From: Bacteroidales bacterium
Lineage (GTDB): Bacteria; Bacteroidota; Bacteroidia; Bacteroidales; Marinilabiliaceae
Length of the DNA stretch: 64,000 nucleotides
Assembly: GCA_024401395.1 (NCBI GenBank)
Contig: JAKSLD010000002.1
Span: forward strand, 155,939 to 219,938
Direction: 5' to 3'
This document shows positions 1,163 to 58,990 of this stretch, piece after piece. The notes below the pieces were generated by a model. The model was not told the origin of the DNA, made no database searches, and saw nothing but the letters and a program-made list of their open reading frames with translations. The first letter of the stretch is position 1. Each line of letters starts with the position of its first letter. The position numbers were made by a program, and so were the translations under genes.

Positions 1163-1260
1163 TATAGAAGACATTTGCCAGACCTATAGAAGACCAAGAG
1201 AAGACTAAGAGAAGACTAAGAGAAGACTAAGGGAAGACCCTTGTTCATCGTAAAATTTCA
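1163..1260 (+). repeat. 11-bp tandem array plus conserved core, copy 1
   Basis: TATAGAAGAC occurs at 1163 and again 22 bases later. Four 11-bp units follow (CCAAGAGAAGA, CTAAGAGAAGA twice, CTAAGGGAAGA) at 1194-1237. They run directly into the core CCCTTGTTCATCGTAAAATTT at 1238-1258. AAGGG-AAGA-CCCTT can form a 5-bp hairpin at the junction. The core ends 43 bases before the amn start codon and 12 bases before its -7 element. The same core occurs six more times in the window. Confidence 0.85.
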
Positions 1261-1270
1261 AAAAAAAGAG

Positions 1271-1278
1271 TATCTTTG
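1271..1278 (+). promoter_or_regulatory. Bacteroidota -7 promoter element for amn
   Basis: TATCTTTG matches the consensus TAnnTTTG exactly and lies 23 bases before the amn ATG. No clear TTG -33 box stands at the usual 19-21 base spacing. Confidence 0.7.
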
Positions 1279-1301
1279 TACAATTACAACTTGACAAGCG
1301 T

Positions 1302-2066
1302 ATGAAAACAAAAGAAGAGATTGTACACAATTGGCTTACACGTTACACTGGGAGGCCAGTAGAGACATTTCCAAAGTACGTTCTACTGACTAACTTCCAG
1401 AACTACGTAGAGATGTTTGCGAAGAAGAATGGAGTAGAAGTGTTACAAGCCAATATGCCAAACGCATCGAATGGGGATATTATCATCATCAATTTCGGTA
1501 TGGGTTCGGCAAATGCTGCTACTATTATGGACCTCTTATCAGCTGCGCGGCCTAAGGCGGTATTATTTTTAGGCAAATGCGGTGGATTGAAGAAGAAAAA
1601 CGAATTAGGAGATTTCATTCTTCCGCTGGCAGGCATCAGAGGAGAAGGTACGTCGAACGACTATTTTCCACCAGAAGTACCTGCGTTACCAGCATTCTCA
1701 TTACAGCGAGCAGTATCATCGGCGATAAGGAAGCGCAGACTAGACTACTGGACGGGTACGGTCTACACCACCAACAGGAGAGTCTGGGAGCACGATGACA
1801 ACTTCAAGAAATACTTGGAATCGATACGCGCCATGGGTATAGATATGGAGACCGCCACCCTATTTGCGGTAGGATTCCACAACGAGATACCAGTAGGAGC
1901 GCTTCTATTGATATCAGACCAGCCAATGATACCAGAAGGAGTAAAGACAGCTGCGAGCGACAAGAAAGTCACTGAGAACTTTGCTGAGCAGCACCTTGAG
2001 ATAGGCATTGAGTCGTTGACAGATATCATGAACGAGGGGCACTCCGTAAAGCACCTGAAGTGGTAA
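1302..2066 (+). CDS. amn: AMP nucleosidase, short Bacteroidota form
   Basis: The 254-residue product belongs to the PNP/UDP phosphorylase fold and resembles the short AMP nucleosidases of Bacteroidota, which lack the N-terminal regulatory domain of the E. coli enzyme. It should hydrolyse AMP to adenine and ribose 5-phosphate in the cytoplasm. Supporting sequence: IIINFGMGSANAATIMDLL, the nucleobase-site loop VLFLGKCGGLKKK, FILPLAGIRGEGTSNDYFP and the ribose-binding MGIDMETATLFAV near residue 185. The ATG is preceded by a good -7 element. It is followed after 124 bases by holA; the gap carries 11-bp repeats. The gene uses many ATA and AGG/AGA codons. Confidence 0.9.
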   Translation: MKTKEEIVHNWLTRYTGRPVETFPKYVLLTNFQNYVEMFAKKNGVEVLQANMPNASNGDIIIINFGMGSANAATIMDLLSAARPKAVLFLGKCGGLKKKNELGDFILPLAGIRGEGTSNDYFPPEVPALPAFSLQRAVSSAIRKRRLDYWTGTVYTTNRRVWEHDDNFKKYLESIRAMGIDMETATLFAVGFHNEIPVGALLLISDQPMIPEGVKTAASDKKVTENFAEQHLEIGIESLTDIMNEGHSVKHLKW

Positions 2067-2085
2067 GAAAAATTTATATTTCGTG

Positions 2086-2162
2086 TATATAGCGAGCATT
2101 AAGGGAGAGTTAAGAGAGCGTATAGAGAGCGTTAAGAGATTGAAGAGAAGAACAAGCATAAG
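2086..2162 (+). repeat. 11-bp periodic array, GTTAAGAGA type
   Basis: Seven consecutive degenerate 11-bp units fill the amn-holA gap: TATATAGCGAG, CATTAAGGGAG, AGTTAAGAGAG, CGTATAGAGAG, CGTTAAGAGAT, TGAAGAGAAGA, ACAAGCATAAG. No core element follows. The unit GAGCGTTAAGAGA recurs exactly in the arrays near 24.95 kb (minus strand) and 44.3 kb. Confidence 0.75.
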
Positions 2163-2190
2163 AAAGAAGGAGAAAAACTAAAGGTAAATA

Positions 2191-3240
2191 ATGGCGGCAA
2201 AGACATACGAAGGAATAATGAGGAATATATCGGCTAAGGAATTCAGTCCGATATATTTCTTATATGGTACGGAACCATACTACATAGACTCGATAGCCTC
2301 GAAGATAGAGCAAGAGGCGCTTCCTGAGGATATGAAGGCGTGGAACCAGACCGTCATATACGGCAGGGACGCGACGACAGAGACAATTATACACGAAGCC
2401 TGTATGTATCCGATGGGCGACCGGAGAGTAGTAATACTCAGGGAAGGTCAGGATTTGGAGAGTCAGAACAAAGGGAAGATAGACGGGCTGATACCCTATT
2501 GCAATCCCAAAGTGATGCAGCAGACGACAGTTCTTGTCATCTGCTACAAGATGACAGAAGAAAAGAAACCGGCCAGAATAATCAAGCTAGCTGCGGAAGT
2601 AGAAAAAGCCGGGGGAGTCGTATTAGAGACGAAGAGGCTATATGACAATCAAGTAGTAGCCTGGATAAACCAGTACGTCGGGTCGCAGCATATCACGATA
2701 GACTACAATGCGGCCGAGATGCTGGCAGAATATGTGGGAGTAGACATCTCCACCATAATTGCGTCGATAGAAAAGCTGAAAGTTGCTGTCGGAGGCAATC
2801 TGACCAACATAACGGCAGACATGATTCAGGCGCATATCGGTCTATCAAAAGACTACAACATATTCGAGTTCCGTTCGGCATTACTAAGCAGGAAAGTAGA
2901 CAAAGTCAACCGAATAGTAAAAGCATACGGAGCGAACGAGAAGCAGCATCAGATAATACCCATCATAGCCAACCTCTACCCAGTCTTCAGGAAGATATTG
3001 ACATATCACTACTGCAAGAACCAGAGTCAGAAAGAGATACTACAGGCAGTCGGAGAGAAGAGCGACTGGGCGTTGAGAGAAAATGTGATACAGCCAGCGC
3101 AGTATTACAATGCGCTGCAATGCTACAACATACTATTATTACTAGAAGAGTATGACATGAGGAGCAAGGGGTTGAACTACCCTTCCCTATCCACCGGAGA
3201 GCTGCTAAGAGAGCTAGTATTCCGAATAATGAATTGCTAA
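2191..3240 (+). CDS. holA: DNA polymerase III delta subunit
   Basis: The 349-residue product matches HolA, the clamp-loader delta subunit that opens the beta sliding clamp. Visible features: the N-terminal start of the AAA+-like domain (FSPIYFLYGTEPYYIDSIASKI), DRRVVILREGQDL around residue 80, the VLETKRLYDNQVVAWINQYV segment around 150, then an all-helical C-terminal domain with SLLEEYDMRSKG-like helix (LLLLEEYDMRSKGLN). HolA has no functional Walker motif, and none is seen here. It lies 17 bases upstream of mutS and is probably co-transcribed with it. Confidence 0.9.
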   Translation: MAAKTYEGIMRNISAKEFSPIYFLYGTEPYYIDSIASKIEQEALPEDMKAWNQTVIYGRDATTETIIHEACMYPMGDRRVVILREGQDLESQNKGKIDGLIPYCNPKVMQQTTVLVICYKMTEEKKPARIIKLAAEVEKAGGVVLETKRLYDNQVVAWINQYVGSQHITIDYNAAEMLAEYVGVDISTIIASIEKLKVAVGGNLTNITADMIQAHIGLSKDYNIFEFRSALLSRKVDKVNRIVKAYGANEKQHQIIPIIANLYPVFRKILTYHYCKNQSQKEILQAVGEKSDWALRENVIQPAQYYNALQCYNILLLLEEYDMRSKGLNYPSLSTGELLRELVFRIMNC

Positions 3241-3257
3241 CAGACATATAATCATAT

Positions 3258-5903
3258 ATGGCTAAGGAGACAGATCCATCACAAACGCCGTTGATGCGTC
3301 AGTATTATGCTATAAAGGCAAAGCACCCTGACGCTATACTACTATTCAGAGTAGGAGATTTTTATGAGACATTCTCAGAAGATGCCATAAAAGCCTCAGA
3401 AGTATTAGGCATTACCCTGACCAAGAGAGCCGGAGCAGAACTAGCCGGAGTTCCATATCACGCCATAGACACATACCTGCCGAAGTTGGTCCATGCCGGG
3501 CTACGAGTTGCCATCTGCGAGCAATTAGAAGACCCAAAGACCGTGAAAGGGCTTGTGAAGCGAGGCATAACAGAGCTAGTGACACCCGGTGTAGCTATAT
3601 CAGACGGAGTATTAGAGAACAAAGAAAACAACTTTCTGGCAGCAGTAGACCTGAGACAACCAGGGAGTTACGGCATCTCATTCCTAGACATCTCGACAGG
3701 CGAATTTCTGCTAGCGCAAGGATCTGCAGAGTACCTAGACAGGCTTATGGCATCATTCAAGCCAAAAGAGGTACTCTTTGAGAAAGGCAAGAGGCAGCAA
3801 TTCAACGAGATATTCGGCACAAAGCTAGTCACATACGCCTTTGACGACTGGGCATTCCAGCCAGATGCGGCGAAAGAGAGACTACGCAAGCACTTCCAGA
3901 CCCATTCGCTCAAAGGATTCGGCGTAGACAATATGGTTCAAGGCATCACTGCGGCAGGAGCCATCATGCACTACCTTGACGTGACACAACACGACAGGGT
4001 GAACCATATACAGAGAATAAACAGGATAGAAGCCGACAGCTATGTATGGCTTGACAAATTCTCGATAAGAAACCTAGAACTATTTGCGTCGGGAGTTGAC
4101 GGCATGACATCATTGACAGACGTCATTGACAAGAGCGTCACACCTATGGGCAGCCGTATGCTCAAGAGGTGGGTAGCCATGCCATTGAAAGACAAGAATA
4201 TAATCTGCAACAGACACAATACCGTTGAGACCCTCATAAAAGAGGGAGAGACCTCAGAAAAAATAGTCACTGCGCTACAGATAGTAGGTGATCTTGAGCG
4301 ACTAGTATCAAAAATAGCCACAGGAAGAGTATCGCCTAGGGAATTGATACAATTACAGAAGTCGTTCGAGGCCATCAAAGAGCTCAAGGAGCAGTTGGAC
4401 ACCATAGAAGACAAAGAAGTCACACGACACATACTATCCTTATCCGAAAGGCTCAACGGATGTGCCCAGATGAGAGACAGGATAAAGAGAGAGATACTAC
4501 CCGATCCGAATGTCAGCATAACCAAAGGCGGCGTCATAGCAGACGGCATCAATGCCGAATTAGACGACCTGAGGAAACTTACATATCACAGCAAGGCATA
4601 TCTGAACGAGATGCAGACCAGTCTCTCGGAAGTGAGCGGCATACCGAGTCTGAAGATATCATTCAACAATGTATTCGGATATTACATAGAAGTAAGGAAT
4701 ACCCACAAAGACAAAGTACCAGGAGACTGGATAAGGAAGCAGACCCTAGCCAATGCAGAGAGATATATCACTCCAGAGCTAAAAGAGTATGAAGACAAGA
4801 TACTCACGGCAGAAGAGAAGATGCTTGCTATAGAGGCAGAAGTATACTCCAGACTTGTATCAGACCTTCAGGAATTCATATCACCGATACAGCAAAATGC
4901 GGCAGTGCTGTCGGAATTAGACGTACTACACGCCTTTGCGGTACAAGCGAGAGAACAGAACTACTGCAAGCCAGTGATGATGGACAACGACGTACTAGAC
5001 ATCACAGACGGCAGACATCCAGTAATAGAAAAGCTACTTGCAGAAGGTATGGTATACACACCAAACAGTGTACACCTAGACACCCATGAGCAGCAGATAA
5101 TCATTGTTACCGGTCCGAATATGGCAGGTAAGAGTGCTTTACTGAGGCAGACAGCGCTGATAGTGCTTATGGCACAGATAGGCTCCTTCGTACCAGCCAC
5201 CAAGGCAGAGATAGGCATAGTAGACAAGATATTCACCAGAGTAGGAGCCAGCGACAACATATCAGCAGGAGAATCCACATTTATGGTAGAGATGAGCGAG
5301 GCAGCCAATATATTGAACAATGTAACGACTAGGAGCCTTGTGCTATTTGACGAATTAGGCCGAGGCACATCCACATACGACGGCATTTCATTAGCCTGGT
5401 CCATCGTAGAGTATCTGCACAACGTACCATCAGCGAGGGCGAAGACACTATTTGCGACACACTACCACGAGCTGAACGATATGGAGAGTCAGTATGACCG
5501 AATCAAGAACTACAACGTAGCGGTGAAAGAGGTCAACGGCAAAGTAATCTTTATGAGAAAACTCATGCCAGGCGGTTCGGCACACTCATTCGGTATACAC
5601 GTAGCGAAGCTGGCAGGTATGCCCAAGGCAGTAGTAGACAGAGCCGAAGACGTCTTGAAGCAGCTAGAAGCCCAGAGAGACAGCAACGCCACAGAAAAGA
5701 ATACAGACGGGCCTTCGGTACAAGTCAAGGCAGATCCATTGAGCGGATTAGCATCAGGATATCAGATGAGCATATTCCAGCTAGACGACCCAGTATTAAA
5801 GCAAGTGAGAGACGAGATAGCCGGATTAGACATCAACAATCTCACGCCACTAGAGGCATTGAACAAGCTCAATGAGATAAAGAAACTCTGCGGAGTCAGC
5901 TAA
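3258..5903 (+). CDS. mutS: DNA mismatch repair protein MutS
   Basis: Full-length MutS of 881 residues. The mismatch-reading motif F35-Y36-E37 sits in RVGDFYETF. The connector, lever and clamp domains follow. The C-terminal ABC-type ATPase shows the Walker A GPNMAGKS near 619-626, the MutS signature [14 protein letters not shown], Walker [17 protein letters not shown] near 695 and the H-loop ATHYHEL. It recognises mismatches and recruits MutL. The stop codon overlaps the stop of the convergent minus-strand gene by 4 bases, leaving no room for a terminator. Codon use is rich in ATA and AGA. Confidence 0.97.
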
Positions 5904-6673
5904 TAATCGTTAGAAATACGATTAGATACAATATCATAGAGAGTTGCCAGTTGAGGATTATCAGCCAGCAACTCTTTGTGCATTTGCATTATTACATCAT
6001 CGTGGCGACGTGCAGGACCAGTCTGAGCCGAACGAGGGTCAGCAGAGAGCGCCTTATCGACAGTCTGACGAATCAAGCTATCCAACAGATGAGGATCCAG
6101 ACCGGCAGTCGACATTATATCATAAGCCTCGACCAGCATACGGTTAGTGAAATTACTAGCCCATACAGCAGCCATGTGGAGAGTACGGCGTTGGGCAGAA
6201 TCAGCCTTAGTTATCGACTTATGAGGCATAGCAGACACCAAAGACTCCACCTCGGCAAGCGTCATAGGAGAATTACCCTCTATAAGCCATTCAATATTAT
6301 TATAGTCGAAAGAGACACCCTTACTGAAAGACTGACAAGGGTACAAGACACCATACTTCTCGAATTTTGACAATACAGCCATATCAGTAGAGCCAGAAGT
6401 ATGAAGGAGTACCGACTCAGGAGATACGCAAGGAAGGCTACGGGCTATGGAAGCGATAGCGCTGTCGGAAGAAGCAATGATATAGAAGTCGGCCACTGGG
6501 ACAGACATGATATCATTTGTATAAGCATAGGCATCGACCTCATCGGCAAGCTGCTGTGCATGTTCAAGAGTTCTACTCCAGATACACTCGATAGAGAGAT
6601 TCATCTGCTGGAACATACGTCCCAGATGAGTAGCCACGTTACCCGAACCCAGTATGACAACCGACTTAGCCAT
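5900..6673 (-). CDS. DUF2520 Rossmann-like oxidoreductase, ProC-like
   Basis: The 257-residue product starts with a dinucleotide-binding fold ([18 protein letters not shown], residues 5-22). The C-terminal helical domain contains [25 protein letters not shown] near residue 165, typical of the Rossmann-like/DUF2520 family related to pyrroline-5-carboxylate reductase and prephenate dehydrogenase. The substrate is unknown. It is the last gene of the mltG-ftsE-coaBC-DUF4835-recN operon; its ATG overlaps the recN stop (TAATG). Its 3' end overlaps that of the convergent mutS by 4 bases. Confidence 0.85.
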
Positions 6674-8328
6674 TATGCACCGAGAAGTTCCTTTGCGTTC
6701 TGGATAGCGGCATCAGAGATACGAGAACCGCTAAGCATCTTAGCAATCTCAGTAACACGCTCCTCAGGAGAGAGAGAACGGATATGCGAGATAGTGGTCT
6801 CTGCAGTATCCTGCTTATAGACCTGATAATGGCGATTACCCTTAGCGGCAACCTGAGGGAGGTGAGTAATAGCTATCACCTGCATATTAGAAGCCATCTG
6901 AGTCATGATACCACCCATCTTATCAGCGACATCACCAGAGACACCAGTATCAATCTCATCAAATATGATAGTCGGGAGATTCTTGCTTCGGCTGAGGAGA
7001 GACTTAATACTAAGCATCACACGAGACATTTCGCCGCCACTTGCCACCTTAGATATATCAGTAGGCGTACCACCTAAGTTAGCCGCAAAGAGGAAGTGAA
7101 TCTCATCATTACCAGTTGAGGTATATTTATCAGTACGGGCATGACCTATAGTAAATACCGCATTACGCATACCCATATCATGGAGATGCGACTCAACATA
7201 CTGCTTAATCTGGTCGAAGACAGAGAGACGTTTATTGCTCAAGGCATCAGCAACAGACTGAAGTTTTGACTGAACCTGAGACAATTCCTTACGGAGATCC
7301 TCCAGTTGCTCATCAAAATTAGTAATCAGACCCACCTTCCTTGAGAGCTCATCGCGAAGAGCAATAAGCGCATCCACATTCTCAACGCGATGCTTCTTCT
7401 CGAGAGAGTAGATAGCATTAAGACGAGAATCGACATACTCAAGGCGCTGAGGGTCGACATCAAGAGAGTCGCACACCTGAGAGAACGTGTGCATAAGATC
7501 CTCGATATCAATACGAGCCGACTCGATACGCTGGTGAGCATTTGTATCCTTAGGGAGAAACCTGTCGATTTTAGCTATATTATTAGTTAGCTGCTTAAGA
7601 GCAGGTATGACAGACATTTCAGAACCTTCAAGGATATTGACAGACTCAGAGAGCTGCATCTTGATATCCTCAGCATTAGCCAGTTTCTCCTGCTCCATCT
7701 CCAGCTCGACATCCTCGTGCTCCGTAAGTTTAAGATCCTGCAGTTCCTTCAGTTGGAATTGGAGATAATCCAGATCACGTTTCATGCGATCATTATCCTC
7801 CACCATCGATTTCTCCTTAGAGAGGAGGGCGGAATATTCAGAATATACAGTCTGATAGGCAGACAACTCCTTGTCGCACTGAGCTACGGTATCTACAATA
7901 TTCAGATGGAACGACTCATCAGACAAGAGAAGATTCTGATGTTGAGAATGAATATCAATCAGTTTATTACCCAGTTGCTTCAGGAAAGAGACATTTACCG
8001 GCTGTTCGTTCACGAAAGCACGCGACTTACCCGTAGGGAGAATTTCACGACGAATGATAGTCTGGTCGTCATAATCCACATCCTCCTCACTGAAGAGCGA
8101 CTTGAGATTGTATTTAGAGACATCGAACGTAGCCTCTACTACGCATTTCTGCTCCTTATTCTGCAGCACCTGCACATCAGCACGTCCACCCAGAAGCAAA
8201 CCCAGAGCTCCGAGCATAATAGACTTACCAGCACCTGTTTCACCCGTTATGACAGACATACCCTCATCGAATTCGATGGTAGAGCGTTCAATAAGTGCAT
8301 AGTTTGAAATATTGAGATTCTGGAGCAT
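6673..8328 (-). CDS. recN: DNA repair protein RecN
   Basis: A 551-residue SMC-like ATPase of normal length. Walker A GETGAGKS is at 29-36. Long coiled-coil arms with a central hinge occupy about 150-380. The ABC signature VASGGEMSRVMLSIK and Walker B PTIIFDEIDTGVSGDVADKMG are near 440-490. RecN helps hold and align broken DNA ends in recombinational repair. The ATG directly follows the stop of the DUF4835 gene, and the recN stop overlaps the next start, so translation is probably coupled along the operon. Confidence 0.96.
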   Translation of the reverse strand: MLQNLNISNYALIERSTIEFDEGMSVITGETGAGKSIMLGALGLLLGGRADVQVLQNKEQKCVVEATFDVSKYNLKSLFSEEDVDYDDQTIIRREILPTGKSRAFVNEQPVNVSFLKQLGNKLIDIHSQHQNLLLSDESFHLNIVDTVAQCDKELSAYQTVYSEYSALLSKEKSMVEDNDRMKRDLDYLQFQLKELQDLKLTEHEDVELEMEQEKLANAEDIKMQLSESVNILEGSEMSVIPALKQLTNNIAKIDRFLPKDTNAHQRIESARIDIEDLMHTFSQVCDSLDVDPQRLEYVDSRLNAIYSLEKKHRVENVDALIALRDELSRKVGLITNFDEQLEDLRKELSQVQSKLQSVADALSNKRLSVFDQIKQYVESHLHDMGMRNAVFTIGHARTDKYTSTGNDEIHFLFAANLGGTPTDISKVASGGEMSRVMLSIKSLLSRSKNLPTIIFDEIDTGVSGDVADKMGGIMTQMASNMQVIAITHLPQVAAKGNRHYQVYKQDTAETTISHIRSLSPEERVTEIAKMLSGSRISDAAIQNAKELLGA

Positions 8329-10424: not shown

Positions 10425-10427
10425 AAC

Positions 10428-11135: not shown

Positions 11136-11146
11136 TTCCTGTTCGT

Positions 11147-12205: not shown

Positions 12206-12211
12206 TGAGGG

Positions 12212-12219
12212 CAAAGTTA
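12212..12219 (-). promoter_or_regulatory. Possible -7 element immediately before mltG
   Basis: TAACTTTG on the minus strand matches TAnnTTTG but ends only 6 bases before the mltG ATG. If it is used, the transcript would be nearly leaderless. No TTG box is seen at the expected spacing, so it may be chance and mltG may be read from the GH3 promoter. Confidence 0.3.
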
Positions 12220-12235
12220 CTTAATTTTTTGTTAG

Positions 12236-14878: not shown

Positions 14879-14918
14879 GTAAAAAGGTTGACTTCAGCTA
14901 AATTTCCGATACGTGTCA

Positions 14919-14982
14919 AATAAAAAAATTACGATGAACAAGGGACTTCCCTTATACTAGCGTATGGGTAGAAAGGAACTAT
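14919..14982 (-). repeat. 11-bp tandem array plus conserved core, copy 2
   Basis: On the minus strand the 11-bp units ATAGTTCCTTT, CTACCCATACG and CTAGTATAAGG lead into GAAGTCCCTTGTTCATCG and then TAATTTTTTTATTTG. AAGGG-AAGT-CCCTT can form a short hairpin at the junction. It is oriented with the GH3 gene, and its core ends about 74 bases before that start codon. Confidence 0.85.
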
Positions 14983-24935: not shown

Positions 24936-24990
24936 CTCTCTATACACTCTCTTAACGCTCTCTTAATACAGCCTTAATACAGAAAGGACC
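24936..24990 (-). repeat. 11-bp periodic array, GTTAAGAGA type, minus orientation
   Basis: Plus-strand units CTCTCTATACA, CTCTCTTAACG, CTCTCTTAATA, CAGCCTTAATA and CAGAAAGGACC are each 11 bases with no gaps. Read on the minus strand they contain GAGCGTTAAGAGAG, the same unit as in the arrays at 2.1 and 44.3 kb. The purine-rich strand is co-directional with both flanking genes. Confidence 0.75.
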
Positions 24991-25421: not shown

Positions 25422-26387
25422 TCATAGTGATTCTATCTCTTCCTGCGATAGACCAGTCCCCTGAACTATCGTGGCTATATCAACGCCTAGGCTCTTGAAC
25501 GCCCTCGCAATCTCAAGTTGCTTCTTTCTTTCGCCTTTGGCTTCTCCTTGCTCTATACCTTGCTGTAGCCCTTGTTCAAGTCCTTGTTCAAGTCCTTGCT
25601 GCAGCCCCTGTTCTCTACCTTGCTTCAATCCCTGTTCGAGCCCTTGTTCAAGGGCCATCTCCATGCGTAGCTTGCGGGATAGCTCCAGGTTGTACGCATC
25701 CAAATAGTGCTTATAACTGATGTCATAAGCTTCACGGTCTTCGGGCGACAGCTGATGGTACTCTGCCACCTGCTCCAATCTCTTGAAGATCGGCATATCT
25801 TCGGCGTTTGTCAGTTGCTGCATGCTGTGCATGTTTTTGAGATTATACATCCACGTATCTATTTTTGTTCCGCTTTGCAACGGCTCTTCTATGGTCAACG
25901 GTATCTGCAGGCAGACCATCCGTATCTTGTCCGTAAACGGCTTGCTTGTGGTTGTGTCTACAAGCTTGACGTCGTGTCTTTGAAATGATTCCTGCGGACC
26001 ATTATTATCGAACAGTTCAAAATTAGTAAAGATTATTGAATATACAGCCTTCAAACAGCCATAATTCCAACCCTTTCCTGCTTCGCCTTGCTTTGCCACA
26101 TCGCGGGCAATGTAATACACCATACGGTCGCGGAAGCCCAGCGTAAACTCGTTCTGCATCTCTACGATAATCTTCTCGCCGCTGGATGTTGTGCAATGGA
26201 TGTCGTAGATTACTGTCTTGTCCTCCTCGGAGTCGCCCTTTATTTCCTTATCGGAATAGACTAAATCGGTGAACTGCACCTCGCCCTCGAACAAATCGTT
26301 GAGGAATGCGAGCAGAATGTCCTTGTTGCCAAAGATTCGCTTGAAGCCGAAATCTGTGAGCGGACTAATAAAGCGTTTTTCTTCCAT
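25422..26387 (-). CDS. Rpn family recombination-promoting nuclease / PD-(D/E)XK transposase-like protein
   Basis: The 321-residue product begins with the family hallmark ISPLTDFGFKRIFGNKDILLAFLNDLF. The PD-(D/E)XK core is visible: an aspartate in VIYDIHCTTSSGEK and the E-x-Q of IIVEMQNE, followed by DRMVYYIARDVAKQGEAG. From about residue 240 a tetrapeptide repeat xQGx runs about nine times (LEQGLEQGLKQGREQGL type) before a helical tail (LGVDIATIVQGTGLSQEEIESL). These genes occur in many scattered copies in Bacteroidota genomes; E. coli RpnA is a related DNA endonuclease that promotes RecA-independent recombination. The DNA of the repeat has a 12-bp period and may vary in copy number. Confidence 0.88.
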   Translation of the reverse strand: MEEKRFISPLTDFGFKRIFGNKDILLAFLNDLFEGEVQFTDLVYSDKEIKGDSEEDKTVIYDIHCTTSSGEKIIVEMQNEFTLGFRDRMVYYIARDVAKQGEAGKGWNYGCLKAVYSIIFTNFELFDNNGPQESFQRHDVKLVDTTTSKPFTDKIRMVCLQIPLTIEEPLQSGTKIDTWMYNLKNMHSMQQLTNAEDMPIFKRLEQVAEYHQLSPEDREAYDISYKHYLDAYNLELSRKLRMEMALEQGLEQGLKQGREQGLQQGLEQGLEQGLQQGIEQGEAKGERKKQLEIARAFKSLGVDIATIVQGTGLSQEEIESL

Positions 26388-33605: not shown

Positions 33606-33663
33606 CTACTGTACTCTATGGCTAGTCATAGAGAAGTCCCTTGTTCATCGTAAATTTTTTATT
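33606..33663 (+). repeat. 11-bp units plus conserved core, copy 3
   Basis: CTACTGTACTC and CTAGTCATAGA are 11-mers starting with CTA; the second abuts GAAGTCCCTTGTTCATCG at 33633, which continues as TAAATTTTTTATT. It is the first of two elements in tandem upstream of wbpE. Confidence 0.8.
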
Positions 33664-33665
33664 CT

Positions 33666-33750
33666 GTACACTCGGACTATACTCGGGCTACATTCGGTCT
33701 ACATTCGGTCTACACTTGGAGAAGTCCCTTGTTCATCGTAATTTTTTATT
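33666..33750 (+). repeat. 11-bp tandem array plus conserved core, copy 4
   Basis: Five perfect-length units (GTACACTCGGA, CTATACTCGGG, CTACATTCGGT twice, CTACACTTGGA) run without gaps into GAAGTCCCTTGTTCATCG at 33721, then TAATTTTTTATTTGCG. This is the clearest example of array-plus-core. The core ends 98 bases before the wbpE start. Confidence 0.9.
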
Positions 33751-33847
33751 TGCGACATAGAGACGGCGAAGAGCAAAAGACGAGAAAAATACAATATTGG
33801 CATTAAATCATTAACTTTACGCCACTAAAAATACTTTTAACGAAGGT

Positions 33848-44265: not shown

Positions 44266-44330
44266 TGTATATAGAGTGTGTTATGGGTGTATTAAGAGAG
44301 CGTTAAGAGAATGTTAAAGATTACACACTC
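44266..44330 (+). repeat. 11-bp periodic array, GTTAAGAGA type
   Basis: Units TGTATATAGAG, TGTGTTATGGG, TGTATTAAGAG, AGCGTTAAGAG and AATGTTAAAGA follow one another exactly every 11 bases in the DUF4294-comEC gap. The unit GAGCGTTAAGAGA is identical to units in the arrays at 2.1 and 24.95 kb. Confidence 0.75.
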
Positions 44331-44354: not shown

Positions 44355-45911
44355 ATGTCGCCACTAATTACATATCTGATTGCCTTTCTGTGCGGAATAG
44401 CATTACAACATTGCTACCCTATCCATATTGAATATCTTTCTGGTGTAACTGCAGGGCTACTCGCTCTGGCTGCCATAGGACTAGCTGTTATCAGGCGCAA
44501 AGCAATACTCTTAGATTACAGACCGTGCAGAATAATTGCCTTGATTCTGGTTCTCCTGTTCGCATATACATATTCCGATTTAAGGAGTGCGCAAATAAAA
44601 AATTACGATGAACAAGGGAGATCCACGGACGCTGAACGGATGCAGGAAGTATGCAGAGAGAAGCTAGAGGCAGAGAAAATAGAAGGAAAGAATCTAGCTT
44701 TAATCAACGCTATAATACTGGGAGACAAAGGATTACTCTCAGACGAGCAGAAAAAAGCGTTTCGAGACACTGGCACTATGCATATTCTGGTAGTAAGCGG
44801 CATGCACGTGGGGTTGATATACCTGACAATAAGTATCGGATTTGCCATATTCGGGCTGAAACGCAATGCGATTGCCAAACTAGTATCCATAGGATTAGTA
44901 TGGGTATATGCCATAACAACAGGACTAGCCCCCTCTGTATGTCGCGCCAGCCTGATGATATCATTCGTGGTCATCATACCTATAATAAACGCACGCATAG
45001 AGCACAAGGACGCAGTGTACCTGTCATTGATAGCACTTTTGCTGTACGACCCCGGCCTGATAAGTTCTTACAGCCTTTGGCTCAGCTATATTTCTGTATA
45101 TGCACTGATACAGTCGTCGTGGCTGATAGAGAAAATTACGGATCGTATTCCATTGAAAATCATACGTTACTCCGCACAATTATGCCTTGTGTCCTGCGTA
45201 TGCCAAGTAGCTACTGCCCCTATAATACTATCGTTCAACGATTATTTTCCTACATTCTTTGCCGTCAACAATCTAATGATAGTACCCCTGCTCTCGCCTT
45301 TGCTGCTTTTATCTATGGGGGTAATTGCCACACCACACAGCATAGCACAGCATATTGCGCCATTGGTCAACTATCTACTGTCGAAGATGGACGACTACAC
45401 CCAATATGCACAGACGTGGCATCTGGCGAGCATACACCTCCCAGGGTACACAAGTATTGAAATAGCCATTATGACTATCACAATAGTGCTACTGTTTACT
45501 GTAATAGGGGCTTGGAGAGGCAAGTACAGAAATATATGCGGATATCTATTTGGAATATCATGCCTTATCTGCACTGGGTACACGATATTCCTCGACGGAG
45601 AGAGTCGGAACATACCAGACCAACTGATATTATGGAGAAGATTTGACAAGACCAATATCAGTCTATATTCAGACAGAAAGATGACGCACTACCTTGCAGA
45701 CACTACAGAAATATATTCGATACGGGAATGCGAGAGGCTACGAAAAGAATTCAGGGTAGCAGAGAACAAGATTCTTCCGCTATGCCAACCATTGAGGATA
45801 CGCGACGAGAAGAATGAAATATCAATAAAAAAAGATGGTGTAGCATATATTAACGGAGATATTATTGACTTACAGTTGCTACAAGAGAGGTCGGTGAGGA
45901 TAGAATTATGA
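44355..45911 (+). CDS. comEC: ComEC/Rec2 family DNA uptake channel protein, short form
   Basis: A 518-residue polytopic membrane protein with an N-terminal DUF4131-like part and the Competence domain. The hallmark is TGTMHILVVSGMHVGLIYLTI, followed by TGLAPSVCRASLMISF and LSYISVYALI. It has no metallo-beta-lactamase domain and seems shorter than many Bacteroidota ComEC proteins. It would carry single-stranded DNA across the inner membrane. Residues about 82-90 (IKNYDEQGR) are encoded by a copy of the dispersed repeat core in antisense orientation. The tRNA-Met terminator follows. Confidence 0.85.
   Translation: MSPLITYLIAFLCGIALQHCYPIHIEYLSGVTAGLLALAAIGLAVIRRKAILLDYRPCRIIALILVLLFAYTYSDLRSAQIKNYDEQGRSTDAERMQEVCREKLEAEKIEGKNLALINAIILGDKGLLSDEQKKAFRDTGTMHILVVSGMHVGLIYLTISIGFAIFGLKRNAIAKLVSIGLVWVYAITTGLAPSVCRASLMISFVVIIPIINARIEHKDAVYLSLIALLLYDPGLISSYSLWLSYISVYALIQSSWLIEKITDRIPLKIIRYSAQLCLVSCVCQVATAPIILSFNDYFPTFFAVNNLMIVPLLSPLLLLSMGVIATPHSIAQHIAPLVNYLLSKMDDYTQYAQTWHLASIHLPGYTSIEIAIMTITIVLLFTVIGAWRGKYRNICGYLFGISCLICTGYTIFLDGESRNIPDQLILWRRFDKTNISLYSDRKMTHYLADTTEIYSIRECERLRKEFRVAENKILPLCQPLRIRDEKNEISIKKDGVAYINGDIIDLQLLQERSVRIEL
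44591..44617 (-). repeat. Conserved repeat core inside comEC, copy 7
   Basis: Read on the minus strand: CCCTTGTTCATCG followed by TAATTTTTTATTTGCGC. The match to the intergenic cores is essentially perfect, and it shares the TTTGCG tail with copy 4. It lacks the 11-bp units and the GAAGT start. The reading frame of comEC is kept. Confidence 0.85.
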
Positions 45912-46155: not shown

Positions 46156-46159
46156 CAAA

Positions 46160-48350: not shown

Positions 48351-48366
48351 TTCTGTATTTATTATT

Positions 48367-48699: not shown

Positions 48700-48711
48700 A
48701 TTAGTAAATAT

Positions 48712-50961: not shown

Positions 50962-50964
50962 CTG

Positions 50965-53256: not shown

Positions 53257-53322
53257 TCTCCAAAGAGACCTATACAATATGCTTTTTTACTAAAAAATAT
53301 GTCTAAATGTTACAATCCGCGG

Positions 53323-53718
53323 CTATTTAACAGCCACTACTTCAACCTCTACCCTAGCGCCCATAGGGAGAGCTGCGGCAGCGAATGTACTTCTTGCCGG
53401 AGCCTGCTCCTTGAAGCACTCGCCATATATAGCATTAAACTTTGCGAACTCAGAAATATCAGCCAGTAAGCAAGTGGTTTTCACTACATTAGCATAAGTC
53501 ATACCAGCCTCAGCAAGGATAGCGCCTACATTCTTCATTACCTGTCGGGTCTGCTCCTCTATGCCGCCCTCGACCAACTTACCCTCAGCAGGATTGATTG
53601 CAATCTGACCAGAAGCATACAATGTCTTCTCGCCAGAATCGAGAGTAACCAGTATAGCCTGACTATATGGGCCTATTGCGGCTGGCGCATTTGAAGTAAT
53701 AATCTGCTCTTTCTTCAT
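53323..53718 (-). CDS. ridA: RidA family enamine/imine deaminase
   Basis: A 131-residue YjgF/YER057c/UK114 protein. The conserved N-terminal NAPAAIGPYSQAI, the central GQIAINPAEGKLV and GIEEQTRQVMKNVGAILAEAG, and the C-terminal ARSTFAAAALPMGARVEVEVVAV with the active-site arginine are all present. It hydrolyses reactive enamines such as 2-aminoacrylate. The start is 2 bases after the CPBP gene stop, so it is probably co-transcribed. Confidence 0.95.
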   Translation of the reverse strand: MKKEQIITSNAPAAIGPYSQAILVTLDSGEKTLYASGQIAINPAEGKLVEGGIEEQTRQVMKNVGAILAEAGMTYANVVKTTCLLADISEFAKFNAIYGECFKEQAPARSTFAAAALPMGARVEVEVVAVK

Positions 53719-53720
53719 AA

Positions 53721-54551
53721 CTATCCTTTTTTAAGTTTACGTGCGAATGACATCAGCAATATTGAAGCGACTACGCCCAATACGGCAGTAAATACAGAAG
53801 CTTCAGGACCGAACTCTCCGCCAGTAATTATATCAGAACCAGACACCTCAGAAACAAACAACGAATAATCGCTGCCATTACCCGATACAGGATATCCGAA
53901 CACTACACCCTGAATATAATTCCAAGCGAGGTGCAATCCGACAGGCATCCATAATGTATTAGAAACGTGATAAGCGACACCAAGAAGCAAGCCAGCCTCA
54001 ATAGCAATAGACAAGCACGACATTACCGTAGCATTGTCATTGAAAATATGTACAAATCCGAAAACAACGCTTGAGACCACCAAAGCGATTAGCAGTCCAA
54101 ACCTATCCCTAATGTATCTGAACAAGAATCCGCGGAAAATAATCTCCTCGCCTACTGCTACAAGGAAATAGAAACAGAAATAATTGAAAAATGCGCCGAA
54201 ATAGAATTCACTACATTCTACAACTGTATAGCTATTGCACAGATAGAGGATCAGTGTAATGGTACACATAAATACTGCACCTACTGCAAATCCCCATGAC
54301 GAATCGGGCAAAAACCTCTTATAAGACAACTCAGATGGCTTACGATGCTCCAATAACAACACAAAGCCATAATAGAGAGCCAGCATAAGACATGCGGCAA
54401 AAGTAAATCCGAAAGCATTAGCATATACATCTTCAAAAATATACCCCAAAGTTGGAGAGAGAGCGTATATGATAAAAAAAACTACAAAGCCAGCTAAAAG
54501 TTTTAGCACCCACTTCCACAATGGGAAATCTTTCATTGTTAGTTCAGACAT
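53721..54551 (-). CDS. CPBP (ABI/Rce1-like) family intramembrane glutamic protease
   Basis: A 276-residue protein with about 7-8 membrane spans. The CPBP motifs are VGEEIIFRGFLFRYI (EExxxR), VFGFVHIFND (FxxxH) and GLHLAWNYIQG (HxxxN). Bacterial members are implicated in bacteriocin immunity or membrane protein processing; the substrate is unknown. Promoter element TAACTTTG lies at 54580-54587. Downstream is ridA. Confidence 0.88.
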   Translation of the reverse strand: MSELTMKDFPLWKWVLKLLAGFVVFFIIYALSPTLGYIFEDVYANAFGFTFAACLMLALYYGFVLLLEHRKPSELSYKRFLPDSSWGFAVGAVFMCTITLILYLCNSYTVVECSEFYFGAFFNYFCFYFLVAVGEEIIFRGFLFRYIRDRFGLLIALVVSSVVFGFVHIFNDNATVMSCLSIAIEAGLLLGVAYHVSNTLWMPVGLHLAWNYIQGVVFGYPVSGNGSDYSLFVSEVSGSDIITGGEFGPEASVFTAVLGVVASILLMSFARKLKKG

Positions 54552-54579
54552 ACGTATTCACTATGTTATTACAACTATG

Positions 54580-54587
54580 CAAAGTTA
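54580..54587 (-). promoter_or_regulatory. -7 promoter element for the CPBP-ridA unit
   Basis: TAACTTTG on the minus strand, an exact TAnnTTTG match, 28 bases before the ATG. A TTTG lies 18-19 bases upstream as a possible -33 box. Confidence 0.65.
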
Positions 54588-54707
54588 TAAGTATAATTGG
54601 AAAAACAAAAATACTAAGGAACAGACACCAATTCTCACGGCGGTTTCATAAAAGCCAGACATAGAACCTTGCCTTGACCAAGCAGATACGTTATTAGAAG
54701 GTTCCTT

Positions 54708-54774
54708 CTACCCTCTGTCTAGATACGGGCTACATAGGGAGAAGTCCCTTGTTCATCGCAATTTTTTATTAAAA
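54708..54774 (+). repeat. 11-bp tandem array plus conserved core, copy 5
   Basis: CTACCCTCTGT, CTAGATACGGG and CTACATAGGGA run into GAAGTCCCTTGTTCATCG at 54741 (next base C instead of T), then AATTTTTTATTAAAATCA. AGGGA-GAAG-TCCCT can form a 5-bp hairpin. Both flanking genes are on the minus strand, so this copy is antisense to them and abuts the stop of the DUF486 gene. Confidence 0.88.
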
Positions 54775-55143
54775 TCACTTCTTGAAGATGAAGTACACAG
54801 CCAATATCAAGAATACGAATCCGACTATATGGTTCCAGCGGAGGTGCTCATTAGGGAACAGCGCCAAAGTAAAGATGGTGAAGACAGAAAGAGATATAAC
54901 CTCCTGAATAACCTTAAGTTGAATTAGATTAAAAGGGCCGCCATTGTCGATGAATCCGATGCGGTTAGCAGGAACCTGGCAACAATATTCAAAAAAGGCT
55001 ATTCCCCACGAAATAACTATGACGCCGAACAATCCCCATTTCTGCATAAGAGGGAGATGACCAAAACGCAAGTGACCATACCAAGCGAAAGTCATAAAAG
55101 TATTGCTCAGCAACAAGAGCAAGATTGAATAGAAACCCTGCAT
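54775..55143 (-). CDS. DMT family protein (DUF486)
   Basis: A 122-residue protein with four membrane helices: FYSILLLLLSNTFMTFAWYGHL, WGLFGVIVISWGIAFFEYCCQVPANR, LIQLKVIQEVISLSVFTIFTLALF and HIVGFVFLILAVYFIF. It is a DUF486 member, probably a small drug/metabolite transporter-like protein. The substrate is unknown. It lies downstream of the proS terminator. Confidence 0.88.
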   Translation of the reverse strand: MQGFYSILLLLLSNTFMTFAWYGHLRFGHLPLMQKWGLFGVIVISWGIAFFEYCCQVPANRIGFIDNGGPFNLIQLKVIQEVISLSVFTIFTLALFPNEHLRWNHIVGFVFLILAVYFIFKK

Positions 55144-55168
55144 AATAGTATCAGATTGAGAGAAAAAA

Positions 55169-55193
55169 GAGACGGAGTATATAACCCCGTCTC
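55169..55193 (-). terminator. Rho-independent terminator after proS
   Basis: GAGACGG / CCGTCTC 7-bp stem with an 11-base loop, followed on the minus strand by TTTTTTCTC. It lies 22 bases past the proS stop. The stem resembles the terminator at 22907. Confidence 0.85.
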
Positions 55194-55214
55194 ATATATT
55201 GAAAAAAAATCTTT

Positions 55215-56690
55215 TTAGTAAGAGATTGCGAAGAGCGCTCTCTGGTGAGAAGGTTTGCCAGTATAGATACACTTACCCTCCTCTGGGACACTATCGAGAG
55301 GAATACAACGGATAGTTGCCTTAGTCTCCTCCTTGATCTTCTCCTCAGTCTCAGTAGTACCATCCCAGTGAGCCGAGATAAATCCACCCTTTTCACTGAG
55401 GACCTTCTTGAACTCATCGTATGTATCGACCTTAGTAATCATTGAGTCGCGGAATGCGAGAGCCTTCTGGTAGATATTAGCCTGAATCTCATCGAGGAGT
55501 ACCTTAATGCTCTGAGCGAGGCCCTCGAAAGGCATCTGCTGCTTAGTGAGAGTATCGCGGCGAGCGATTTCAGCCTCACCCTTCTCGAGATCGCGAGGAC
55601 CCATAGCTACGCGAACAGGGACACCCTTAAGTTCATACTCAGCAAACTTCCAACCTGGCTTCTTCTGATCATTGTCATCGAACTTAACGCTGATACCGAG
55701 AGCCTTGAGGTCGGCAGCGAGAGCATTAGCCTTCTCAGCGATAGCTGCAAGTTCCTCAGGTTTCTTGTAGATAGGAACGATTACCACCTGAATTGGAGCC
55801 AACTTAGGAGGAAGTACGAGACCATTATCATCAGAGTGGCTCATAATGAGAGCACCCATAAGACGAGTTGAAACGCCCCAAGAAGTAGCCCATACATACT
55901 CGAGCTTATTCTCCTTGTTTACGAACTGCACATCGAAAGCCTTAGCAAAGTTCTGGCCGAGGAAGTGAGAAGTACCACTCTGGAGAGCCTTACCATCCTG
56001 CATAAGAGCCTCAATAGTATAAGTATCGAGAGCGCCGGCGAAACGTTCGTTAGCCGACTTAACACCCTTAACTACAGGGACAGCCATCCAATTCTCAGCG
56101 AAATCAGCATAAACACGAAGCATCTTCTGAGCCTCAGCCTCAGCCTCCTCACGAGTAGCGTGAGCGGTGTGGCCCTCCTGCCAAAGGAACTCAGCAGTAC
56201 GGAGGAAGAGACGAGTACGCATCTCCCAGCGCATTACGTTAGCCCACTGGTTACAGAGAATAGGAAGATCACGATAAGAAGAAATCCAATTCTTATATGT
56301 ATTCCAGATAATTGTTTCCGATGTAGGACGGATAATAAGTTCCTCCTCGAGTTTAGCCTGTGGGTCAACCACTACGCCCTTACCATCAGGGTCGTTCATA
56401 AGACGATGGTGAGTAACCACTGCACACTCCTTAGCGAAGCCCTCTACGTGCTCAGCCTCGCGGCTGAGGAACGACTTAGGAATGAGGAGAGGAAAGTAAG
56501 CATTCACGTGACCTGTCTCTTTGAACATATCATCGAGGGCGCGCTGCATCTTTTCCCAGATTGCGTATCCATAAGGTTTGATAACCATACAGCCACGTAC
56601 GGCTGACTGCTCAGCAAGGTCGGCCTTTACGACCAACTCGTTGTACCACTGCGAGTAATTCTCGCTACGAGGTGTAAGTTCTTTAGCCAT
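55215..56690 (-). CDS. proS: Prolyl-tRNA synthetase, short (archaeal/eukaryotic-like) type
   Basis: A 491-residue class II synthetase. Motifs: [21 protein letters not shown] near the N-terminus, class II motif 2 [57 protein letters not shown], and the anticodon-binding domain [18 protein letters not shown]. It ends with the short zinc-binding-like C-terminal domain typical of this type (AISY terminus). It lacks the bacterial editing insertion. A TAACTTTG promoter element lies at 56728-56735. Confidence 0.96.
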
Positions 56691-56727
56691 TGTATATTTT
56701 TTCCTAATTTATTCCAAAAGACGAACG

Positions 56728-56735
56728 CAAAGTTA
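56728..56735 (-). promoter_or_regulatory. -7 promoter element for proS
   Basis: TAACTTTG on the minus strand, an exact TAnnTTTG match, 37 bases before the proS ATG. Confidence 0.65.
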
Positions 56736-56772
56736 CTAATCTTTTGTTACGTAGGTTTTAATAGAACTAATT

Positions 56773-58698
56773 TTATACATTGAATGTATTGACAACTGCT
56801 GTCAATTTAGCCGATTGGTTCTTCAGCTTAGCCACATAATCCATCATTCGGTCAGCTGCGCCAGCAGTCTGCTGGGTACCATCGTTCAAAGAGACGATAG
56901 CCGAAGAAATCTGCGACACGGCACCAGTCTGCATATAAGTATTCTCATTCACCTTCTTGACAAGAGCCAAAGTCTCTGCCATTTCAGGTTGCAACGCCAA
57001 TATACTCTTTGCGGCATCCAAAGATATCTCATTAGACCGCAGAGTCAGCTGTTCGATATGCTCCGACACAACGCGGCACTGATCGGCCAGTTTATTAACC
57101 TCCCCAGCCACAACGGTAAAACCCTTACCGGCGGCACCAGCTCTAGCAGCCTCGATAGCGGCATTCAAAGAAAGAATTGTAGTTTTATTAGCGATATCCC
57201 TTATCTGCTCAAGATAATCCGATATCAACTGAATCTGTTCAGAAGCGTCAGACACCTTATTAGCTCCCACATTTACGCCCTCCTTAGTAGACTCAGTAAT
57301 CTTCAACGCATTCTCCGTGTGTCTATAGTTATCAGACGAAGCCGACGAAATCTCCTGAATAGTTGTTGTCAGCTCCTCCATAGAAGAAGCCTGCTGCATA
57401 GTCTGTTCAGATATTGCGCCAAGACCCGACTCAATCTCACGAGCAGTATCATTGACCATCTCAGCAGTTTTCTGAATAGTATTGATTGTATTCTTAATAG
57501 AATCATTCATAGTAGATATTGAGGTCAGCATCTGTCCCACCTCATCTTTAGACACCTTATGCAAATCGACCTCCGTCGTGAAGTCGCCCTTAGCCATAGC
57601 GTTGATATACTCAGTAATGACCGTGATAGGACCGACCAAACGGCGCATCAAAATCAAAAATACAAGAGCGATAAGCAGCAAGCCCACCAACCCCATTCCA
57701 AGGAACTTAAAGAAATCGGCCCTAGCCTCGTCTATAATCTTATCGTAGGACACCCAAGCAGACAAAGCCCAATAGTCACCCTCGGGGCTCACCTTGACAG
57801 GCACGATAGAGAGATAATGCTCGTCACCATTCTCGGTCACCATAGAATTGACAGTATTACCCTTAGCCACCTGAGCAATCTGCTCACTATTATAAGAATC
57901 AATATCCTTTATTGACGTGCCCTTCATCTTAGAATCAGAGCTAGCGATTATAGTTCCATCCGGAGCTATAAGGCTAAAATGGGCATCTCCACCAGAAACG
58001 ATAGGCATAAGAGTCTCCTGATAGCTATCCAAAGAAATATCGATACCGAACATACCAATGAACTTACCGCTAGAATTCTTCATTGGCACACAAACAGAAG
58101 CCTCAAGAACAGGCTTATCCAATGCGCCCTCATAATCCTCATAATACGGATTAGTCACAGCAGGCTTACACTCCACGTGCAACTTATGGTACAAGCCCTC
58201 AGGATTTTCGCCCTCGAGATCCAATATATCCACTCTATCGCCACCAGCAGTTGGCAAAGCCTTAGTCGAGCGGTATCTACCATACTCCTCGCCCCAATTC
58301 CTATCATAGGTAAATCTCTGCCAGCAATACCAGGCAGACATATAATGCTGAGAATTATTCAACAATATCTGAGCCATCTGATCGCTAAGCTGGAATCTCT
58401 GATTTTTCTCCAGAGAGACCAAAGTCTCCATCTGAGCGCCAATAGTCATACACTGCTCCATATCGCCATATAGCTGGAGTTCGATTTTAGAAGCCAAAGA
58501 GGCAGCCTGATAATCGGCCGTACTCTCAGCCACCTTACGTTTATCCTGATAATTAGAATAACTCTGATAAGAGATCAGCACCAGATAGATAACCACTATT
58601 GGCAGGAATACCTGACAAAGAATTTTAGCTGTCAAAGAAGAGCTGACAGCATCTCGCACCTGCCTACCCTTGTTGTGAAGTTGTCTGTTAACTCCCAT
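56773..58698 (-). CDS. Methyl-accepting chemotaxis-type sensor protein with dCache domain
   Basis: I start at the ATG at 58698 (MGVNRQLHNKGRQ); the frame is open 26 codons further. The product is about 641 residues. Membrane span 1 (VFLPIVVIYLVLISY, near 30) is followed by a periplasmic dCache-like sensor (PYYEDYEGALDKPVLEASVCVPMKNSSGKFIGMFGIDISLDSYQ). Membrane span 2 (LGMGLVGLLLIALVFLILM), HAMP (GPITVITEYINAMAKGDFTTEV) and a long signalling coiled coil come next. The hairpin tip IANKTTILSLNAAIEAARAGAAGKGFTVVAGEVNKLA is well conserved. No CheA, CheW or methylation enzymes are nearby and most Bacteroidales have no flagella, so its output is unclear. Confidence 0.92.
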   Translation of the reverse strand: MGVNRQLHNKGRQVRDAVSSSLTAKILCQVFLPIVVIYLVLISYQSYSNYQDKRKVAESTADYQAASLASKIELQLYGDMEQCMTIGAQMETLVSLEKNQRFQLSDQMAQILLNNSQHYMSAWYCWQRFTYDRNWGEEYGRYRSTKALPTAGGDRVDILDLEGENPEGLYHKLHVECKPAVTNPYYEDYEGALDKPVLEASVCVPMKNSSGKFIGMFGIDISLDSYQETLMPIVSGGDAHFSLIAPDGTIIASSDSKMKGTSIKDIDSYNSEQIAQVAKGNTVNSMVTENGDEHYLSIVPVKVSPEGDYWALSAWVSYDKIIDEARADFFKFLGMGLVGLLLIALVFLILMRRLVGPITVITEYINAMAKGDFTTEVDLHKVSKDEVGQMLTSISTMNDSIKNTINTIQKTAEMVNDTAREIESGLGAISEQTMQQASSMEELTTTIQEISSASSDNYRHTENALKITESTKEGVNVGANKVSDASEQIQLISDYLEQIRDIANKTTILSLNAAIEAARAGAAGKGFTVVAGEVNKLADQCRVVSEHIEQLTLRSNEISLDAAKSILALQPEMAETLALVKKVNENTYMQTGAVSQISSAIVSLNDGTQQTAGAADRMMDYVAKLKNQSAKLTAVVNTFNV

Positions 58699-58870
58699 GT
58701 GTTTGTTGTCTGTATGTCTTAGAAATGTCAGATTTATGGCAACAACGCCTCCAATCCGGCACAAAATTACACACAAAAATCAGTCAATCAGCAATTAACC
58801 ACCCTAAAATATCAGGTTTTAATTCCTACACGTTGAATAAACACATCTACTCAGCAACTCCCCGAATTTC

Positions 58871-58882
58871 GCAAACGTTTGC
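58871..58882. promoter_or_regulatory. Palindrome GCAAACGTTTGC, LacI-family-type operator candidate
   Basis: A perfect 12-bp palindrome with central CG, as in operators of LacI/PurR-family regulators (PurR box ACGCAAACGTTTGCGT). The flanks here are TC and AA, so the match to the full PurR box is partial. It is 173 bases before the chemoreceptor start and 261 before the CLC start. No such regulator gene is in the window. Confidence 0.4.
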
Positions 58883-58931
58883 AATTCATACACATACGAT
58901 AATACAACAGAAAACAGTCGCAAGGTATGGG

Positions 58932-58990
58932 GAAGACCCTTTCTAGTATAAGAGAGCACCCTTGTTCATCGTAATTTTTTATTAAAATCA
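58932..58990 (+). repeat. 11-bp units plus conserved core, copy 6
   Basis: GAAGACCCTTT (an 11-mer resembling the core start), CTAGTATAAGA, then GAGCACCCTTGTTCATCG and TAATTTTTTATTAAAATCA. The unit CTAGTATAAG is shared with copy 2 and the AAAATCA tail with copy 5. It is oriented with the CLC gene. Confidence 0.85.

Follow-up and report, generated by a model that had tools for sequence, protein, structure and literature searches.

Dispersed DNA signals in an 11-bp register in a Bacteroidales genome and its relatives may work like uptake signals

What keeps a short, strict sequence recurring between unrelated genes, each copy preceded by 11-bp units whose letters change from place to place while their length does not? 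The question is raised by a 64,000-nucleotide stretch of a Bacteroidales (Marinilabiliaceae) genome (assembly GCA_024401395.1, contig JAKSLD010000002.1, positions 155,939 to 219,938), here called the window. A preliminary description of this DNA had reported seven copies of one core behind arrays of 11-bp units and had considered a small non-autonomous mobile element, a regulator-binding array or a transcribed RNA motif. We found that the copies belong to a dispersed family with two strict core types, and we tentatively interpret it as a recognition signal akin to DNA uptake signals.

All seven copies were recovered. Allowing up to 3 mismatches, the 18-mer of the core matched the window seven times against 0.04 matches expected (100 shuffles, maximum 1), with starts at 1233(+), 14932(-), 33633(+), 33721(+), 44606(-), 54741(+) and 58954(+); the seven places had been reported correctly, with some of the exact starts wrong by up to 5 bp. 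A profile made from sequence alone, using 48 copies in the genome (36 of type A and 12 of type B, described below), and run with filters off returned the same seven, each at E 6.4e-8 or better, and its eighth window match (E 0.01, 1168-1197) fell within the array of copy 1. Tandem Repeats Finder assigned period 11 to 1180-1239 (5.5 copies) and 33667-33720 (4.9 copies), and lag 11 gave the most window repeat regions (6) among lags 5 to 25, confirming the reported periodicity. The copies are as follows.

1168..1262, plus strand: copy 1, array at 1180-1239, type A core at 1233-1250 and a degenerate T-tract, upstream of a nucleoside phosphorylase-family gene at 1302
14917..14969, minus strand: copy 2, units, type A core at 14932-14949 and T-tract, between GH3 and carboxylesterase genes
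33612..33663, plus strand: copy 3, unit, type A core at 33633-33650 and T-tract
33664..33751, plus strand: copy 4, five 11-bp units at 33667-33720, type A core at 33721-33738 and T-tract, upstream of a DegT-family gene and 88 bp (8 x 11) from copy 3
44593..44627, minus strand: copy 5, type A core and T-tract, antisense within the comEC reading frame
54719..54772, plus strand: copy 6, units, type A core at 54741-54758 and T-tract, between two minus-strand genes
58933..58985, plus strand: copy 7, unit, type A core at 58954-58971 and T-tract, between divergent MCP and CLC genes

Comparison of the copies revealed two discrete core types, type A (CCCTTG followed by TTCATCGYAA) and type B (ATAAGG followed by TTGCTCGCAR), with a T-tract after both. 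In full, type A runs CTAGTATAAGG, GAAGTCCCTTG, TTCATCGTAAT, TTTTTTATTTT and type B runs CTAGTATAAGG, GAAGTATAAGG, TTGCTCGCAGT, TTTTTTATTTT, in the same frame. The single core described earlier is real, but the second type, and the register that continues through core and T-tract, had gone unseen. The signal ends in a nearly invariant 22-bp piece, a TTCATCGYAA or TTGCTCGCAR core plus the T-tract. In the arrays, a CTA-led consensus recurs at every 11-bp step and fades across about five units (89 type A copies); the commonest left halves of the units are CTAGT, CTAGA, CTACA and CTATA, and the commonest right halves are CCTATA, CTCGGG, ATAAGG and CTCGGT.

The spacing between cores gives the clearest measure of the register. 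After merging equal-length linkers that were at least 80% alike, 43 inter-core linkers (44-220 bp) remained, and 37 of these dissimilar linkers were exact multiples of 11; the other six were off by 1 (three), by 2 (two) or by 4 (one). The register holds though T-runs range from 4 to 8 and other repeats lie inside some linkers. For neighbouring same-strand cores less than 400 bp apart, the distance was an exact multiple of 11 in 42 of 45 pairs in this genome and 22 of 24 in its relatives, and in one relative, G010, this was true of 18 of 18 pairs among the cores listed (mostly type B). Four inverted core pairs shared one common residue, two of them being copies of one element. That units keep their length and phase although their sequences differ, as first described for the window, is thus borne out by the linkers, and the 11-bp phase extends to copies elsewhere in the genome. 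Judged from the DNA alone, the register is almost always exact across units, core and T-tract. Whole-unit recombination could maintain such a register without selection, so the register by itself is no proof of function; the T-tract piece, however, retains its 11-base length by substitution. We also observed arrays of CTAG in steps of about 9 bp (CTAGTTGTT-like), sometimes within inter-core linkers (L160 and L181 in the relative G011; L087 and L091 in this genome).

Searching beyond the window, as the preliminary description had proposed, yielded many further copies. The two-type pattern matched 307 cores in the genome (3.30 Mb, 47 contigs) against 1 for a reversed-pattern control, and CCCTTGTTCATCG occurred exactly 120 times, against 0 for the same pattern read backwards. 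Three genus relatives, G010, G008 and G011, carry 166, 132 and 120 cores, and the other eleven genus genomes 0-2, as does the reversed control (0-2). Profile matches numbered at least 155, 139, 144 and 114 in this genome, G010, G008 and G011, with a single, marginal match in G001, while ten genomes had none; across the family, 4 of 71 genomes had matches. These counts are lower bounds, the search having scored at most 150 candidates per genome in the genus and at most 80 in the family. No profile match was found in 290,762 bases from four core-free genomes (G003, G012, G015 and G020). A scan of named genomes with the type A pattern found 28 stretches, of which 14, 9 and 4 were in the metagenome-assembled genomes (MAGs) Horse_feces89, S22M_St_71 and Horse_feces91, relatives that carry the signal; the remaining one, in a Liptonbacteria MAG, is probably due to chance. 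A phage origin was considered and rejected, as no viral contig matched the stricter type A and B patterns. In two IMG/VR contigs from a single phage lineage, a type A core with T-tract does sit precisely where an open reading frame (ORF) begins (L101:688-709, L102:517-538), and these matches are probably chance.

The core is also strict. Among 248 distinct cores typed in the carriers' loci, positions 3-4 read CA in 175, GC in 69 and another pair in 4. With its T-tract, the type A heptamer had 169 exact occurrences and 0 with a single mismatch; the type B equivalent had 66 and 5. Most of the loci behind the 169:0 count were picked by an exact core, so the counts from the unselected window weigh more: there, the 15-mer TTCATCGYAAWTTTT occurred 6, 1, 0 and 5 times with 0, 1, 2 and 3 mismatches. 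The corresponding numbers were 7, 1, 1 and 21 in a G011 sample and 0, 0, 3 and 21 in a non-carrier, and profile scores in the G011 sample formed a lower, more graded series (28.8 to 12.7 bits). Perfect cores far outnumber singly mismatched ones, as they do in uptake signals; from a mobile repeat in decay one would expect numerous copies that carry one to three mismatches.

Gene calls for the counts of context, shared sites, phasing and ORF overlap were greedy ORF picks. On this basis, 82 of 90 type A rows (one of the 90 from a phage contig) lay between two called genes, 6 lay inside an ORF and 2 were without a neighbour. The 82 intergenic rows comprised 27 between divergent genes, 25 in tandem with transcription, 23 in tandem against it and 7 between convergent genes. 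Ten of 147 cores of this genome fell inside ORFs of at least 150 amino acids, some of them probably spurious. The signal lies chiefly in intergenic DNA, pointing either way relative to the genes, and decayed copies are almost absent. Orientation is unbiased both by strand (160 plus, 147 minus) and relative to transcription (25 with, 23 against), as for uptake signals, with G011 as the exception (76:44).

Copies within coding sequence offer a view of how cores arise. Copy 5 is present as reported but is not intergenic: it lies antisense inside comEC, where it encodes QIKNYDEQG on the strand of the gene. In G011, comEC carries a type B core at codons aligned with this type A core, and G008 and G010 carry neither; the site, N-terminal in the protein, is a variable loop with small gaps nearby. 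Around a further type A core, near the C-terminus of G011 comEC, the protein alignment has no gaps. (This is the core that had been taken for an occupied copy 1 site in G011, a candidate now rejected.) A ketoacyl synthase gene (L085, L167) has one type B core in this genome and three cores 66 bp apart in G011, with a linker absent from the former; the G011 cores are in reading frame and lie within the inserted linker rather than in gap-free alignment. The gap test for an origin by substitution is therefore divided. A type B-like match in the DegT genes of G008 and G010 falls on a conserved LARK motif and may simply follow from the protein. The host gene of copy 5 and the arrays in the window that lack an A or B core are listed below.

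44355..45911, plus strand: comEC, host gene of copy 5 (Pfam Competence PF03772)
44292..44317, no strand assigned: 11-bp array without A or B core, 2.4 copies, upstream of comEC
2094..2139, no strand assigned: array without A or B core, of GAGCGTTAAGA-type 11-bp units, 4.2 copies (Tandem Repeats Finder)
24936..24982, no strand assigned: 11-bp array without A or B core (Tandem Repeats Finder, two rows)

Separately, an ORF at 25546-25652 contains a tandem repeat of 12/24/36 bp (CCTTGTTCAAG-like), a period different from that of the 11-bp arrays.

Comparison among the carriers points to sites that persist while their arrays change. Of 57 genes beside the relatives' cores, 14 matched core-adjacent genes of this genome, whereas among other genes 6 of 155 did (Fisher P 3e-5); among the 14, orientation is not kept in all and at least one looks paralogous. 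At one locus, this genome and its G010 counterpart differ over 264 columns by 3 substitutions and one 22-bp gap, exactly two units, within a longer match that is only 83.8% identical. At another, a gene with 99% identical protein (85% at the DNA level) in this genome and G011 is followed in both by a pair of cores (spaced by 77 and 88 bp) whose arrays differ, and at a further site the core is kept in three species while array and flanks have diverged. Some sites are thus common to species while their arrays have been rewritten. Few of the window sites are occupied in the three carrier relatives: a type B core lies upstream of the GH3 gene in G008 (copy 2), a type B core is present in G011 at copy 5 and a weak type B-like match at copy 7, and the remaining loci are empty or not comparable, the relatives being too diverged at copies 1 and 6 for comparison of empty sites or target-site duplications. 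Other sequences adjoin some copies. A second dispersed element of imperfect palindromes of 93-97 bp, starting GAGTAATTGAG and ending CTCAATTACTC, adjoins some arrays in this genome (L012, L034, L058 and L087); short palindromes of the GACGGAGCA/TGCTCCGTC kind lie beside cores in G008 and G011 (L126, L246); and G008 and G010 (L156 and L142) match at 97% up to one point, after which G008 has about 1 kb extra and the match resumes near an element copy.

Among known systems, DNA uptake signals behave most like this signal, which makes the marking of self DNA its likeliest role. Uptake signals have strict cores that show no preferred orientation and are spaced somewhat regularly, with AT-rich motifs on one flank and with clade dialects; they favour non-coding DNA, with some coding copies, and arise by substitution (PMC1626085). 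Like the uptake signal sequences (USS) of Pasteurellaceae and the DNA uptake sequences (DUS) of Neisseria, the signal here has a strict core with very few near-misses on both strands, a non-coding preference with some coding copies, an AT tract on one side, clade dialects and some sites shared by relatives (PMC1626085). It is over-represented in this genome and its close relatives (4 of 15 genus genomes), as uptake signals are, and ComEC and DprA genes are present. We therefore favour, at a probability of roughly 40%, a clade-specific dispersed family that is recognised as double-stranded DNA, is kept by selection or drive and is most like an uptake signal. A very specific, probably oligomeric DNA-binding machine would contact the core and step along the units with one contact per 11 bp, and recombination-linked selection, not a transposase belonging to the family, would maintain and homogenise the signals. 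The most likely role would be to mark self DNA for uptake or recombination, a role assigned here by analogy.

A number of observations weigh against this explanation. No binding protein for the signal was found, and we know of no uptake signals with long arrays. The signal is about ten times rarer than USS and DUS: there is one core in every 10.8 kb here, whereas USS and DUS occur about once per kb (PMC1626085). Unlike them, it is preceded by long arrays in exact 11-bp register. Both core types occur within one genome, unlike in USS and DUS, and some copies have clearly been copied between loci: the same two-ended element stands at loci 19 kb apart with different flanks and a length difference of 11 bp (L008/L009), and 58 identical bp recur between different flanks (L019/L020). 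The unequal strands of G011 (P 0.0045, tandem copies not collapsed), the inserted cores of the ketoacyl synthase and the choice of loci behind the 169:0 count belong here as well. Gaps of less than 4 kb between clusters were scarce among the cores listed, at 1 of 30 in this genome (5.6 expected, P 0.0065) and 4 of 62 in G010 (10.7 expected, P 0.0045), but the cut-offs were set only after the data had been seen and the coefficient of variation of the spacing was not below random (P 0.37 and 0.31); the spacing evidence is suggestive only. Most traits of uptake signals are seen, but their density is lacking and the gap test gives a split result, so the signal is better said to work like an uptake signal than to be a USS.

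The copied loci also speak for the main rival, which is possible but doubtful: a modular non-autonomous repeat with a fixed end and variable minisatellite units, spread in trans by an enzyme and without host function, whose register would persist because units duplicate and recombine whole. The 22-bp gain or loss of units and the intergenic bias fit it too. BOX of Streptococcus pneumoniae is likewise a dispersed repeat built from modules, of which an inner one varies in number; its modules are larger than those here, and we know of no 11-bp register in it. The nearest repeat by plan is BrickBuilt of Porphyromonas gingivalis, a miniature inverted-repeat transposable element from the same order, intergenic, with imperfect tandem units that vary by locus, and in number by strain, beside fixed flank modules, a leader and a tail (PMC4596501). 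BrickBuilt has a 23-nt unit, 19 copies, terminal inverted repeats and a leader/tail of up to about 300 nt (PMC4596501), whereas the signal here has an 11-bp unit, 307 cores, usually one 22-bp end and two core types. Most copies are one-ended, with ends facing each other in only 4 of 151 end rows of this genome's loci (two loci), which does not fit terminal inverted repeats; hardly any decayed copies are seen although some sites are common to species; and the G011 comEC C-terminal core stands without a gap. A mobile element, as the preliminary description had it, is therefore supported by the copying and opposed by the few decayed copies, the shared sites and the comEC cores without element-sized gaps. 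As to the enzyme, the repetitive extragenic palindrome/RAYT system was rejected, the Y1 transposase (PF01797) being found in 0 of 1 for this genome and in 5 of 14 controls; an IS91-type Y2 transposase was found in 0 of 15 genomes, but also in 0 of 14 controls. No transposase was seen by eye among the listed ORF starts between type B cores near contig ends (L103-L105), where no family search was made.

Other proteins could read an 11-bp step. The signals could be sites of chromosome organisation or segregation, on which a nucleoid or partition protein polymerises from the core, adding a subunit every 11 bp in the manner of ParR on parC of plasmid R1, whose direct 11-bp repeats are read stepwise and of which R1 ParR requires two (PMC9426499). 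The exact register, the few short gaps between sites and the orientation neutral to genes agree with this. We nevertheless consider it unlikely: R1 parC is a single plasmid locus beside its own parMR (PMC9426499), and here there are hundreds of chromosomal sites rather than one centromere, with hypervariable units, no known partner and carriage by only 4 of 15 genus genomes. The ribbon-helix-helix model RHH_1 (PF01402) was found in 0 of 4 carriers and 2 of 11 non-carriers, a weak test, as a ParR-type protein of this fold may escape the model. Operator arrays for a regulator of neighbouring genes, as the regulator-binding array of the preliminary description would be, are quite improbable. Tandem 11-bp steps suit head-to-tail DNA-binding domains, and only 7 of 82 intergenic copies are convergent; but neither promoter-like boxes (29 and 22 cases) nor starts and stops (56 cases each) showed significant phasing with the copies, the context class counts roughly track intergenic length in the window (966, 3260 and 289 bp), and the neighbouring genes of the window copies look functionally unrelated. 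The least probable is an RNA-level element, whether terminator, attenuator or small RNA. The T-tract and an AAGGG/CCCTT or GAACA/TGTTC stem in some copies speak for it, yet a stem of at least 4 bp forms in only 25 of 89 (first stem) and 26 of 89 (second) type A copies, so the hairpin reported at the array-core junction is not a general feature; with orientation neutral to genes and Rfam finding only a tRNA in the window, the idea of a transcribed RNA motif is disfavoured. A reverse-strand leader peptide (ATG AAC AAG GG) was dropped because the type B core has no ATG. In the parts of the open-access literature that were consulted on 11-bp or intergenic repeats of Bacteroidales and Bacteroidetes and on Bacteroidetes uptake sequences, no description of this element was recognised; a Riemerella paper, in the portion available, mentions USS/DUS only for other bacteria (PMC7965970). 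The TAACTGA repeats of Beggiatoaceae, found also in five Bacteroidetes, resemble the signal in that a single genome holds 169 sets of short direct repeats lying between genes, but differ in having a unit of 7 bases and fixed sequence, mostly just upstream of start codons (PMC4679880).

An 11-bp frame that outlasts large changes of sequence is an unusual sign, visible from sequence only, of something that reads DNA in fixed steps. It is conceivable, though we hold this loosely, that the family represents a new kind of self-DNA recognition signal, in which a strict core in two dialects is joined to 11-bp units in register and the constraint falls on how long the array is rather than on what it spells, as if a DNA-binding polymer followed a reading frame; if so, we know of no earlier uptake or recombination signal in Bacteroidota. 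Were the copies no more than a mobile repeat, it would need explaining why decayed ones are nearly absent; as chromosome organisers, they would make up a system specific to this clade, with hundreds of naturally occurring sites on which to test it. If they act in uptake, a self-DNA filter would shape the exchange of genes in gut Bacteroidales, with two dialects in one genome and different preferences among related species.

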